From positions 14,375 through 58,278 of the forward strand of contig PLXJ01000050.1 of the NCBI GenBank assembly GCA_003151395.1: a stretch of DNA of 43,904 bases, given 5' to 3'. The notes under the pieces are model-generated. The model did no database searches and was not told where the DNA came from. It saw only the letters and a program-made list of their open reading frames with translations. Source of the DNA: Actinomycetota bacterium. GTDB lineage: Bacteria; Actinomycetota; Actinomycetes; Nanopelagicales; Nanopelagicaceae. A program made the translations under genes and the position numbers. Of this stretch, positions 7,389 to 13,050 are shown piece by piece. Positions within the stretch are counted from its first letter, which is position 1; the number at the start of each line of letters is the position of its first letter.

Positions 7389-8969
7389 TTAGAGCGAAAT
7401 GGATAAGGCAGATATAGGGAGAGGAAGGTGCGAAACAATAATTAACGCGCTTCTAGCTAGCCTTTCAGAGACTCTTATAGATATTCGCTCTACTTGCCCA
7501 GAATCCAAGAACTCGTACGGTTCATCAAGAATAAATATTGGAGTATTGCGTAGAAGCACTCGCGCCAGCTTTAGCCGCTGTTTTTCTCCGCCAGAAAAAT
7601 TAAATCCTAGAGATCCGATCATGGTATCCAAGCCAGCGGGCAAATTAAGGACAAAGTCTCGCAACTCAACAATCTCTAGAACCTCAAGCAATTCTTGATC
7701 CTCCGCCGATGGATTGCCGATTTTTAAATTCTCGCGGATTGAGGTACCAAAAAGATAATCATCTTGCAACAAAGTGGAAAATAGATGCGCGTCACCAGGA
7801 TGCAATTTTTGACCATTCAAAAGGATCTCACCGGAGTACGGGATAAATCCCAACAAGGCGTTTATGATCGATGATTTTCCAGAACCGGATCTCCCAGAAA
7901 TAAGAAGAGTTTCATGACTGGAAACAGTTGCGCTTATCACCCGCGTAGTTGCATCTGGCAACAAAGGAAGAACAGCGCGAAATTCCAGGCGCACCGAAAG
8001 TGGAATCGATGATTCCTCGATAGTAGTTAAATCAATAATTTCGAGCATGGGCCCGATATTTCTAATCGCGCCTAGAATCAAACGCAGTTGAGAAAAGGCA
8101 CCGGGCAGTGAACTTAAACCATCAAAGATTGCAAGGGGCACCAGAGCTACTACGGCAATGTTGATTCCAGCTAAGTGATGATTGAGTGCACCTTCTGCGC
8201 CAAACCGAAGCGCAACGATGACCGAAGCGCCGAGCGCTACAAAGTAGAAAGCGCTTGCAAAACCCGAACGAGCCGCGTTCCTGGCTTCTACCTCCGTTAT
8301 TTTGTCTTGTAATTGATCAATTTGGTTCAAAAGTTCCCGATCATAATTGTAAATCAGCGACTCTGGAGCGGATTCAGCAACTTGTAATATCTGGTCAAAG
8401 AGTTGACTCTCATAGTTTCTGGCCTCGGATTCCCCTCCAGAAATCATTGCTAAGAACGGGATCAAGAAAGTTGCCAGGAGGAAAATCGCAGCGATCGCGT
8501 TCCCGCAGGCGGGCAAAAGCCAATGGATAATGGTGATTCCAGCTCCCCCAGAGATGAGGCTGGCGAGCCAGGGAGAAGCAACGCGCAACCACAAATCTTG
8601 CGCTAACTCAACATCGTTAATGATCTCCGAGAGAAGATTTCCGCGATGGAGCGCGGAATAATCCCCTGGCAAGAGTCGACTAAAACGTTCATAAATTCTG
8701 ACCCTGAGGGAGCTCTGAATTTTTAGCGCGCTATTGTGTTCAAGGATGCGGCTAGCATATTTCAAAACACCACGTGAAAGACCGAAAAAACGCACACTTA
8801 CAATGGCGACCTCTAGAACTAAAACGGGTGGCCTTGTGGATGCCATGGAAATCAACCATGCACTAGTAGCAAGCAATCCGACCGCAGCTCCTAGCGATGC
8901 GCCACTAAGTAGAACAGCTGAGGCCATCTCACGCCACTGCACTTTAAAGATCCCTAGAACTCTCCTCAC
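7389..8969 (-). CDS. cydC: Thiol reductant ABC exporter subunit CydC
   Basis: Half of the heterodimeric CydDC exporter, which moves cysteine or glutathione-type thiols out of the cytoplasm and is needed to assemble cytochrome bd; 526 residues. The N-terminal part is a transmembrane domain of about six helices. The C-terminal ATPase has Walker A GRSGSGKSS (359-367), signature FSGGE (458-462) and Walker B IFILDEP followed by YEF rather than the more usual TA(H/S). Start is a GTG overlapping the cydD stop (GTGA). Fourth gene of cydABDC. CydC and CydD are told apart by order and by similarity to each family, so the two names could in principle be swapped. Confidence 0.88.
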   Translation of the reverse strand: MRRVLGIFKVQWREMASAVLLSGASLGAAVGLLATSAWLISMASTRPPVLVLEVAIVSVRFFGLSRGVLKYASRILEHNSALKIQSSLRVRIYERFSRLLPGDYSALHRGNLLSEIINDVELAQDLWLRVASPWLASLISGGAGITIIHWLLPACGNAIAAIFLLATFLIPFLAMISGGESEARNYESQLFDQILQVAESAPESLIYNYDRELLNQIDQLQDKITEVEARNAARSGFASAFYFVALGASVIVALRFGAEGALNHHLAGINIAVVALVPLAIFDGLSSLPGAFSQLRLILGAIRNIGPMLEIIDLTTIEESSIPLSVRLEFRAVLPLLPDATTRVISATVSSHETLLISGRSGSGKSSIINALLGFIPYSGEILLNGQKLHPGDAHLFSTLLQDDYLFGTSIRENLKIGNPSAEDQELLEVLEIVELRDFVLNLPAGLDTMIGSLGFNFSGGEKQRLKLARVLLRNTPIFILDEPYEFLDSGQVERISIRVSERLARSALIIVSHLPLPISALSISL

Positions 8970-10603
8970 TTTGATACACCCATACTTGTCACGTGAGTCG
9001 AGGATCCAATCATGAACTCGCGGTGAGATATCAGAAGAACCATTGCTCCTTCCTTAGCTCTCTCGCGTAGCACGTTGGCAATTTGATTTTCAGAAATGTC
9101 ATCGACGGAAGCCGTTGGTTCATCCAGTATTAGGATGGGTGCCGATTTCATTAGTGCGCGAGCCAAAGCAATCTTCCTCAGTTGTCCGATAGAGAGTTTT
9201 TGACGAACCGTTCCTAATTCCGTCTGGAGCCCTTGCGGCAAATCTTGTGGGTCCAGATCAACCCTAAGTAACGCCGTCGTTAGATCGCTATCACTTGCCT
9301 GGGGCTGCGCATGACGAAGAATGTGGGCGACTGTGCCAATTGGAAATTTGGGCTCTTGAGGTTGCCATGCAATTAAGGATCGCCACGCCACTAGATCCAT
9401 GGTCGATAGGTCAGTTGAACCAGATTGATCACTGATCGTCACTGTGCCCTCAGTGGGATAAATAAATCCTAAGAGAATGCCAGCTAGGGTCGATTTACCA
9501 GAACCGGAAGGACCAATGAGCGCATGTATTTCACCCGGACGCCACTTTCCCGCAGGGATAATGATCTCTTCGCGGTTAGGGTAACAAACTTTTAACTCGC
9601 TCCAGGAAATCTCGGATACCTGAGTAGCCACGTAATTAGCGTTTCGTAATGGTTTTTCGAGAATAGAAAAGAGTTGATTAAATGCGGCAACTCCATCAGC
9701 AGCGGCATGAAAATATGCGCTCACCTGTCGGATGGGCCAGTACACCTCCGGGGCAAGAACCAACACAAATAAGCCGACTGATAACGGCATTGAGCCATTG
9801 ACGAGACGTAGCCCAATTGTTACTGCGAGGAGTGCCACTGAAAGTGTCGCAACGAGTTCGAGAGCTAGTGAAGATAGAAACGAAACTCTTAAAACCTGCA
9901 TGGTTTCCGTACGGTATTTGTTTCCTACCTCATCGAGTTTCTTGCTCTGAAGTTTTTCGCGACCGTAGACCTTGAGGGTAGTGAGCCCGCTCAGTAGATC
10001 AAGAAAATATCCACTTAAGAGCGCCAGGGTCTGCCATTTTTTTTCAGTTGCGCTTGCCGTAAATTTTCCTATCAGAATCCCAAAGACCGGAATCAAAGGA
10101 ATGGTCAGCAGGATAATTCCTCCTGATTTCCAATCGCGCCAGGCAATCGTAATTCCGACTACTACCGGTACTACGACGGCGATGAAAAGTTGGGGAAGAA
10201 ATTTCGCAAAGTAACTATCGAGACTATTGATCCCCTTTGTCACCAGAAGTGCAATTCCCACCGTTCCTAACTCCGTCGTATCCGATCCACTATTTTCCAA
10301 AGTTTTTTTCATTACTTCAGTTCGTAGTTCATTACGCATTTTGCTACTCGCAGTAGTACTCACGCGATCGTTTGTAAACGCCAGAAGCGCGCGTGCCAAG
10401 AATATGAGCCCTAAGACCACAACTTCTGCATGAAGAGAACTGAAGGCTCGATTATCCTGAAAAAATTTGCAAATCAAATCCACCAATAGGAAAGCCTGCG
10501 CAATGGTGAAGGTTGCGCCAATTACTGCGATGAGGACTATGGCGAAAATAAAACCCCGGCTGCTGCGTGAGTACCGCAACAACCGGGGGTCAAATGGTTT
10601 CAC
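8966..10603 (-). CDS. cydD: Thiol reductant ABC exporter subunit CydD
   Basis: Partner half of the CydDC exporter, 545 residues. Transmembrane domain in residues 1-320, then an ATPase with Walker A GPSGSGKST (364-372), an altered signature LSIGQ (470-474, in place of LSGGQ) and Walker B ILILDEPTAS. A divergent signature in one subunit is common in heterodimeric exporters with one degenerate site. Start is GTG at 10603, sharing its G with the cydB stop (TAGTG), which indicates translational coupling. Its C-terminus overlaps the cydC start by four bases. Confidence 0.88.
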   Translation of the reverse strand: MKPFDPRLLRYSRSSRGFIFAIVLIAVIGATFTIAQAFLLVDLICKFFQDNRAFSSLHAEVVVLGLIFLARALLAFTNDRVSTTASSKMRNELRTEVMKKTLENSGSDTTELGTVGIALLVTKGINSLDSYFAKFLPQLFIAVVVPVVVGITIAWRDWKSGGIILLTIPLIPVFGILIGKFTASATEKKWQTLALLSGYFLDLLSGLTTLKVYGREKLQSKKLDEVGNKYRTETMQVLRVSFLSSLALELVATLSVALLAVTIGLRLVNGSMPLSVGLFVLVLAPEVYWPIRQVSAYFHAAADGVAAFNQLFSILEKPLRNANYVATQVSEISWSELKVCYPNREEIIIPAGKWRPGEIHALIGPSGSGKSTLAGILLGFIYPTEGTVTISDQSGSTDLSTMDLVAWRSLIAWQPQEPKFPIGTVAHILRHAQPQASDSDLTTALLRVDLDPQDLPQGLQTELGTVRQKLSIGQLRKIALARALMKSAPILILDEPTASVDDISENQIANVLRERAKEGAMVLLISHREFMIGSSTHVTSMGVSK

Positions 10604-11643
10604 TAGTGGACGGTATCCAAAACTCCAGCCTCTGGGGTAGAGATCTGATTTGGATTAATTCGCTTACGGAATATCCAGTAAGACCAACCCTGGTAGAGCA
10701 GGACGATTGGGGTCATGATCAAAGCCACCCAGGTCATTACACCAAGGGTGTAATGGGTACTTGATGCGTTGAATATATTGAGTCCAGGTCCACCCGCAGT
10801 GCGATTTGGCATCACATTTGGGTAGAGCCCAGTAAATAGGGTGATAACTACCGCAGCTGTCGCAATTGCAGAGAATAGGAAGGCGTAACCTTCACGACCC
10901 TTCATATTTGCGGCCAGTGCTGACAACCAGGCTACGACGACGACAGTGGATCCTGCGATAACTCCACCTTTTGAGGTTAATCCCAACATTGTCCATCCAA
11001 GGAAGAGAACAGCGAGTAGGGCGGTTACTAGTCCCACTTGTTGACCCAACTTGTTTGCTCGAACTCGAATTTCCCCATCAGTTTTCAGGGCTAGGAAGAA
11101 TGCTCCATGTGAGACAAACAGTGAAAGAGTGGTTAACCCTCCAAGTAGTGCGTACGGATTGAGTAGATTCCAGAATCCACCCGAATACTGGATGTAGCCA
11201 GCGGATGTTTTAACCAGGGGAACGCCGCGAACTATATTCGCAAATGCCACACCCCAGAGAAGTGCGGGAAGAAAACTGGAGATCGTTATTGCAAGATCCC
11301 AACGAGAGCGCCACTTTTCGCTGCCGTATTTGCTCCGATACTCAAAGGAAACGCCACGGACAATCAGTGATATCAAGATTAGGAAGAGTGGAAGATAGAA
11401 ACCACTGAACAAAGTTGCGTACCACTCCGGGAAGGCAGCGAAGGTAGCTCCGCCTGCGACGAGCAACCAAACTTCATTGCCATCCCAAAGTGGCCCAAGC
11501 GTTGTTAGAACGGCACGACGTTCGGCCTGATTTTTTGCAACTACTGGAAGCAGAATTCCCACCCCAAAGTCGAAACCTTCAAGGACGAAGTAACCGATCC
11601 AGAGGACGGCGATGATGACGAACCAGAATGAATTAAGTGAGAT
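10603..11643 (-). CDS. cydB: Cytochrome bd ubiquinol/menaquinol oxidase subunit II, with apparent ATC start
   Basis: Subunit II of the bd-type terminal oxidase in the plasma membrane. The frame is open from the cydA stop onward and encodes the standard CydB N-terminus, SLNSFWFVIIAVLWIGYFVL followed by EGFDFGVG, but no ATG, GTG or TTG precedes it. The codon where the family starts is ATC (11643-11641), placed eight bases after GGGAG, an ideal ribosome-site spacing. The first ordinary start (GTG 11562) would delete the first helix and the conserved GFDFG motif. With ATC the protein has 346 residues, the usual length. The later part has LWDGNEVWL and nine or so helices. Lies 21 bp after cydA. 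Confidence 0.88.
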   Translation of the reverse strand: MSLNSFWFVIIAVLWIGYFVLEGFDFGVGILLPVVAKNQAERRAVLTTLGPLWDGNEVWLLVAGGATFAAFPEWYATLFSGFYLPLFLILISLIVRGVSFEYRSKYGSEKWRSRWDLAITISSFLPALLWGVAFANIVRGVPLVKTSAGYIQYSGGFWNLLNPYALLGGLTTLSLFVSHGAFFLALKTDGEIRVRANKLGQQVGLVTALLAVLFLGWTMLGLTSKGGVIAGSTVVVVAWLSALAANMKGREGYAFLFSAIATAAVVITLFTGLYPNVMPNRTAGGPGLNIFNASSTHYTLGVMTWVALIMTPIVLLYQGWSYWIFRKRINPNQISTPEAGVLDTVH

Positions 11644-11664
11644 TTTTTGTTTCTCCCTAGCAGC

Positions 11665-13050
11665 CTAGTAAGCCATCGTGAGTGTTTTGGAGTTCTCATC
11701 GCGTTCGATGGTTTTCTCTGGACCCACCTTGATAGTGCGGTAGATCAATCCGAATTCAATGACGGCGAGAACTCCGTAGAGCAATGTGAAGACAACCATG
11801 GTGAAGAGCACACTTGCCGCGCTGACTCCGGGGCTCACGCCGGCGGAAGTCTTAAAGAGTCCAAAGACAACCCAAGGTTGACGGGCGCTTTCGGTAAAGA
11901 TCCATCCGAAAGAGTTAGCCAAGATTGGTAGGAACGGAAGCACGACCATGCTCCGTACAAACCATCGCTTGCGCGGGAAGCGCCCTTGCCGAATAAACCA
12001 CAAGGCGAGCAATGAAATAAGCGCGGCCAGGGCTCCAAAGCCAATCATCAACCGGAAACTCCAGTAAGCGAATGGAATATTTGGCGTGTAGTTGCCAGGA
12101 CCATACTTCTGTTCGTAACTCTTCTCCAGCGTATTTACACCTTCAACAGTTCCATTCACATTTCCAGTTGCCATGAATGAGAGGACAGAGGGTAAACCGA
12201 TTTGGAAGACCGATTTGCTTCCGTTGAGTGTTCCAATAGTCAAAAGTGAGAAGGGAACATTTGTTTTGGTGTTGTATACGGCCTCGGCAGCTGCCATTTT
12301 CATCGGTTGCTGCGTGGTCATCAAACGAGCCGTTGTGTCGCCAGAGACCCCAACAATTACAAAGGAGATGAGGACAGTTATAAGTCCAATTTTAAGTGCG
12401 GGCTTAGCAACTTCGGCATCCTTCTTATGAAAGATCATCCACGCACCAACTCCTGCGAATAGTGCCCCGGCAGTTAAGAATGCGGATGGAATTGTGTGGA
12501 AGAAGGCAGCAAGTGCGGTTGAGTTAGTTAACACCTTGAAAATACTGGTGAGCTCTGCACGACCGCGGGTGCCGTTCAATACGTAGCCAACAGGATGTTG
12601 CATGAAGGCATTTGCAGCCAGGATGAAGTAAGCGGATAACAAAGTGCCAATCGCCGCCAACCATATTGCGGCTAAGTGAAGTTTCTTTGAGAGTCGATCC
12701 CAACCAAAAATCCACATTCCGAGAAATGTGCTTTCCAAAAAGAAGGCCAAAAGTCCCTCTATCGCTAATGGAGCACCGAAAATATCTCCTACGAAGCGAC
12801 TATAGGAAGACCAGTTCATCCCGAACTGGAACTCTTGAACGATGCCAGTTACCACTCCAATTGCAAAGTTGATGAGAAATAACTTCCCAAAGAATTTAGT
12901 CGCGCGCAGGTACTTATCCTTATTTGTCCGGTACCAAGCGGTCTGAAGTCCCGCAACCAAGAATCCAGATCCGATCGTGATCGGCACAAAGATGAAGTGG
13001 TAAACGGTAGTTATTCCAAATTGCCATCTAGCAAGGTCTAGTGCACTCAT
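11665..13050 (-). CDS. cydA: Cytochrome bd oxidase subunit I
   Basis: Heme-binding subunit I of cytochrome bd, a high-affinity quinol oxidase; 461 residues. His18 in VYHFIFVP is the expected heme ligand of helix 1. The FQFGMNW segment and the quinol-site motif, here ARQPW (usually GRQPW), are present. Length fits the short Q-loop type. Start ATG 13050 has GGGGAG four bases upstream. First gene of cydA-cydB-cydD-cydC. An imperfect hairpin and TGTGAA half-site lie in the upstream region, but no clear operator could be assigned. Confidence 0.95.
   Translation of the reverse strand: MSALDLARWQFGITTVYHFIFVPITIGSGFLVAGLQTAWYRTNKDKYLRATKFFGKLFLINFAIGVVTGIVQEFQFGMNWSSYSRFVGDIFGAPLAIEGLLAFFLESTFLGMWIFGWDRLSKKLHLAAIWLAAIGTLLSAYFILAANAFMQHPVGYVLNGTRGRAELTSIFKVLTNSTALAAFFHTIPSAFLTAGALFAGVGAWMIFHKKDAEVAKPALKIGLITVLISFVIVGVSGDTTARLMTTQQPMKMAAAEAVYNTKTNVPFSLLTIGTLNGSKSVFQIGLPSVLSFMATGNVNGTVEGVNTLEKSYEQKYGPGNYTPNIPFAYWSFRLMIGFGALAALISLLALWFIRQGRFPRKRWFVRSMVVLPFLPILANSFGWIFTESARQPWVVFGLFKTSAGVSPGVSAASVLFTMVVFTLLYGVLAVIEFGLIYRTIKVGPEKTIERDENSKTLTMAY

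Follow-up and report, generated by a model that had tools for sequence, protein, structure and literature searches.

The window, the whole 43,904-nucleotide stretch of DNA analyzed here, corresponds to G000:C45:14375-58278 in a draft assembly whose 54 contigs total 1,849,696 bases (completeness 93.56%), and it carries the cytochrome bd oxidase genes on its minus strand. Subunit I is encoded by cydA (11665..13050), whose best NCBIfam match, NF011677, scores 313.4 bits, below that model's cut-off of 968. Subunit II is encoded by cydB (10603..11643), which comprises 346 codons when counted from an ATC codon; its product falls in the CydB family by both TIGR00203 (346.7 bits against a cut-off of 117.3) and PF02322 (362.4 against 35.6 bits). 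Then come cydD (8966..10603; TIGR02857, 532.8 bits, cut-off 435), with a GTG start that overlaps the end of cydB, and cydC (7389..8969; TIGR02868, 389.9 bits, cut-off 329.05), with a GTG start that overlaps the end of cydD. We rejected the idea that a second cydB copy carries the function, as the window cydB is the sole match above the PF02322 cut-off in this 93.6% complete genome. The one weak PF02322 match elsewhere (15.3 bits) lies inside a 976-residue frame.

Read on the minus strand from the cydA stop, the cydB leader is TAG GCT GCT AGG GAG AAA CAA AAA ATC TCA CTT AAT TCA TTC TGG TTC. The TAG (11665-11667) shares its frame with cydB and is separated by 21 bases from the downstream ATC (11641-11643); a Shine-Dalgarno-like AGGGAG (11653..11658) lies between them. 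An earlier sequence-only reading of this DNA had proposed that cydB starts at the ATC, noting that the frame holds no ATG, GTG or TTG from the cydA stop to codon 28. We confirmed the lack of such codons; the GTG at codon 28 (11560-11562) is the sole such codon within the first 40 codons from the ATC. The same reading placed the ATC eight bases after GGGAG, where the actual gap is 9 bases (AAACAAAAA).

By a rough estimate, 35 codons without a canonical start are not rare in themselves, so the weight of the missing start comes from homology. In the solved CydB chains 8b4o, 7d5i and 7nkz, residue 3 or 4 aligns with residue 3 or 4 of the window protein, and the best-matching chains align residue for residue from that position, which places the ATC at CydB residue 1. 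This placement, also made in the sequence-only reading, is supported by the solved chains together with the alignment of 26 of 26 close relatives.

Start codon and constraint among relatives

Loci of relatives were taken from contig matches as the best 80 of 566 loci, and the start region was read directly in 26 loci from genome_contigs. Merging the loci and removing 34 duplicates and 2 truncated rows gave 107 distinct relatives. The aligned start codon is ATG in 76 of these and GTG in 4. The other 27 all offer a canonical codon in the interval from -9 to +3 codons, which is a lenient test since chance often supplies one. ATC, ATA or ATT is found at the aligned cydB start in none of the 107, and ATG occupies precisely that position in all 26 distinct relatives with 85% or higher identity to the N-terminal query.

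We also scanned 296 genomes of the family for start patterns. An ATH start fits a single genome, the source genome itself, and a DTG start fits 43, all of them with ATG. The scan is strict: 77 of the 296 genomes have a CydB match (the source genome is counted here, and some matches are partial), and 33 of the 77 fit neither pattern. A search at the order level again covered 296 genomes, all those listed being from the same family, and apparently does not widen the sample. A search of 60 genomes turned up no second one of this species; the closest match has 85% DNA identity. Among the relatives examined, no other assembly has ATC at the cydB start, and close relatives have ATG. This is the pattern that the sequence-only reading had itself set against a functional ATC start, and its suggestion that the ATC holds subunit II synthesis low or ties it to cydA translation finds no support in conservation.

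The rest of cydB is undecayed. Counting only sites where two outgroups agree, we found 31 synonymous and 7 nonsynonymous changes in cydB on the window branch, one of the latter being the start itself, and 30 and 4 on the sister branch. For cydA, the corresponding counts are 37 and 9 on the window branch versus 41 and 9 on the sister branch. These branch counts, which give no sign of decay in cydB, suggest that the gene was under selection until recently. Because cydB is present as a single copy and has not decayed, any change of its start would be recent.

Shine-Dalgarno strength and leader fold

Poor start codons are reported to tend to come with stronger Shine-Dalgarno sequences (PMC5622118), and we looked at the cydB leader for such compensation. 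In the same study, switches of the Shine-Dalgarno sequence and switches of the start codon are reported to have no significant association, and of 61,358 ancestral AUG starts, 363 changed to GUG, 113 to UUG, 2 to CUG and 1 to AUU (PMC5622118).

The predicted Shine-Dalgarno duplex of cydB is -7.9 kcal/mol. Duplex energies were computed with an assumed anti-Shine-Dalgarno sequence, since a search of the assembly for the source genome's own 16S gave no match. The duplex is stronger in 12 of the 14 relatives folded (-8.2 in the nearest, -10.2 to -10.6 in the next four) and weaker in two, L012 (-6.9) and L013 (-7.3). It is also weaker than that of the genome's own infC, the gene for initiation factor IF3 (-10.3 kcal/mol). 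The strong or extended Shine-Dalgarno sequence that goes with infC-like starts is thus absent from cydB.

The leader is predicted to fold at -4.8 kcal/mol with ATC versus -1.5 kcal/mol with ATG, which does not amount to the compensation that PMC5622118 describes as a tendency. The predicted hairpin pairs a 5' arm over the Shine-Dalgarno sequence (UAGGGAGA, 11652..11659, minus strand) with a 3' arm that takes in two bases of the start codon (UCUC(A)CUUA, 11634..11642, minus strand). When ten codons were folded in place, ATC was the most stable; the identical stem formed with ATT, at -2.2, and the other codons ranged from -0.7 to -2.6. The hairpin is therefore only partly special to ATC. Five close relatives with ATG fold at -6.6 (L087) and at -1.1 to -2.9 (the other four). 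Since the leader of one ATG relative folds more stably than that of the window cydB, the hairpin is a modest signal, and with L012 and L013 having weaker Shine-Dalgarno sequences, neither signal is strong. We found no compensating change for the ATC start in Shine-Dalgarno strength or leader fold, and the context likewise lends no support to the regulated start put forward in the earlier reading.

It is the ATC that makes an inverted repeat with the Shine-Dalgarno sequence complete (11634-11659, minus strand). One guess is that this may reflect a templated mutation or a sequencing error caused by fold-back.

Apparent AUC initiation at infC and reports from other bacteria

IF3 was found in 56 of 60 genomes, the source genome included, and we read the infC loci of 30 of the 55 relatives. 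In the source genome, the infC frame lacks any canonical start from the stop before it up to the conserved N-terminus, where it reads AGAGGAAGAGTT ATC AGC GCC GAA (ATC at L229:1726-1728, minus strand, G000:C49). The codon at the conserved N-terminus is ATC in 29 of the 30 relatives' loci; in the remaining locus, L252, AAC stands there and ATT comes next. Seventeen of the 30 relatives also have a canonical codon further upstream in the open frame, so that ATC is not the sole infC start candidate there; none occurs in the other 13 or in the source genome, whose own infC appears to start at ATC. Gene callers that accept ATG, GTG and TTG alone would overlook this start or put it in the wrong place.

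Streptomyces infC is reported to start at ATC, and IF3 to repress the GTC start of Streptomyces sigR (PMC5472188). In Staphylococcus aureus, AUU and AUA starts are reported to give about 10% of AUG in poor medium and, for one gene, up to 30% in rich medium (PMC13009471). One ATC is listed among E. coli upstream starts (PMC13245402). Mutation of the B. subtilis rny start to AUC is reported to leave reporter expression much lower (PMC10303841), and for a chloroplast gene of Chlamydomonas, PMC9845219 cites at second hand a figure of 10-20% with AUU or AUC, to which we give no weight. The earlier reading had pointed out that rare AUU, AUA and AUC starts under IF3 control are known. AUC initiation is credible here, given the ATC of the genome's own infC. 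Cells of this lineage could thus make use of an AUC start, though at cydB it would probably be weak.

If the base is right, cydB resembles infC, a gene with an IF3-autoregulated AUU, AUA or AUC start, in having an AUH codon at a conserved N-terminus with no canonical start at hand. However, the infC ATC is kept in 29 of the 30 relatives' loci, from genus to class, whereas the cydB ATC is private, and infC has the stronger predicted Shine-Dalgarno sequence. Streptomyces sigR is also an actinobacterial gene co-transcribed with a partner, and its non-canonical start could likewise be repressed by IF3. The regulatory elements of sigR-rsrA, however, have been tested and are reported to show high conservation among Streptomyces (PMC5472188), whereas the cydB ATC is a non-conserved feature seen in sequence.

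The S. aureus genes cvfC1, ccpN and citZ share with cydB a non-canonical start, in their case with lower yield (PMC13009471). The citZ AUA is reported to be limited to one strain lineage, and the cydB ATC may be likewise. In contrast to cydB, cvfC1 and ccpN are described with extended Shine-Dalgarno motifs, conserved starts and measured yields (PMC13009471). The S. aureus set comprises AUU and AUA starts, and AUC does not occur in that text. E. coli pcnB is reported from experiment to have an inefficient AUH start that limits its product, but the codon is AUU, not AUC. Among the matches listed in one limited literature collection, we found no cydB with an AUC or ATC start.

Origin of the ATC codon

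We lean toward the view that the ATC is a consensus error or a recent, unfixed and mostly disabling mutation, not a selected regulatory start. The ancestral cydB start would have been ATG, and of the assemblies examined this one alone has C in place of G at the third base; either the consensus base would be wrong, or a very recent mutation that largely silences cydB would not be fixed. We infer a wrong or unfixed base from comparison of the sequences: a private ATC, ATG in close relatives, a leader with no compensating change and an otherwise intact gene. Against it stand the ATC at the genome's own infC, which suggests that AUC starts are tolerable, the modest strength of the Shine-Dalgarno and hairpin signals, and a window that contains no N and has no flagged frame break.

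The assembly is decent but not perfect. Twenty sampled stretches (355,659 bases) contain 28 runs of N, of which 27 are two bases long and one spans 40, and the short runs occur about once per 13 kb. These runs make a consensus error plausible, though none falls in the window. A frame-break check of 112 pairs flagged a single case, in L157, where a 2-N run at L157:10150 (G000:C17) interrupts a putative mutM-like frame, named from its sequence.

Alternatively, the AUC may be present in the cells and used, with cydB working like infC, which we regard as possible but less likely. The initiator tRNA would read AUC weakly and IF3 would reject most of the complexes, so that CydB synthesis would run at perhaps one tenth of the AUG rate, or lower. 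The bd oxidase would then be limited by CydB rather than by CydA, and the level of CydB would rise as IF3 activity falls. The ATC at infC in this genome and in its relatives, the intact and constrained cydB frame, and the reports on Streptomyces infC and sigR (PMC5472188) and on S. aureus (PMC13009471) all favor use of the AUC. However, no relative examined shares the ATC at cydB, and its Shine-Dalgarno sequence is weaker than that of infC and comes with a modest hairpin. CydA and CydB are needed together, and a big cut in CydB alone would bring no clear benefit. The low reporter expression from AUC at B. subtilis rny (PMC10303841) points the same way. The fuller form of this idea, in which cydB is truly AUC-started along with infC and IF3 activity sets the amount of bd oxidase, as a respiratory control by initiation fidelity, is improbable.

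We consider it very improbable that translation starts at the internal GTG and yields a shortened CydB. That GTG is the first canonical start and would be the choice of a caller limited to ATG, GTG and TTG, but starting there would lose residues 1-27, including the conserved EGFDFG, which is identical in the two best-matching solved chains, and close relatives start 27 codons earlier.

Less credible still is ribosomal read-through of the cydA TAG into a CydA-CydB fusion, for although there is no other stop between the two genes, which share a frame 21 bases apart, and although in 2 of 13 genus loci (L087 and L092) the two genes likewise share a frame interrupted by the cydA stop alone, the other 11 are out of frame (10) or have a further stop intervening (L091), so the frame match here looks like chance. 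In those two loci, the spacing between cydA and cydB differs from that in the window.

If the AUC start is real, cydB would give an example from nature of AUC initiation outside infC and would link IF3 to a respiratory oxidase, and callers allowing only ATG, GTG and TTG would misplace the start of cydB. If the base is an error or an unfixed mutation, which we hold more likely, there would be nothing new in the cydB ATC, and the case shows that a single odd start codon in a draft assembly has to be checked against relatives and reads before regulation is claimed. The apparent ATC start of infC in this lineage is a useful control for such claims.

We checked whether starts are missing elsewhere in the genome. 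In 399,563 bases there are 1,552 frames of at least 70 codons, of which 233 have hits and 136 were left after removal of shadow frames; 36 were dropped (less than 45% identity), and 4 of the 100 frames examined were flagged. A general loss of start-codon stringency is not borne out, as cydB is the sole clear missing start among the 100. Two of the flagged frames were dismissed, one in L163, where the alignment runs upstream of the shared start, and one in L161, which is antisense to a 444-residue frame. The last is ambiguous. It is an 86-codon putative frame at L151:14844-15101 (G000:C5), 85% identical to one in G020; its ATT stands opposite ATG in the G020 relative, and both have an ATG 18 codons further on.
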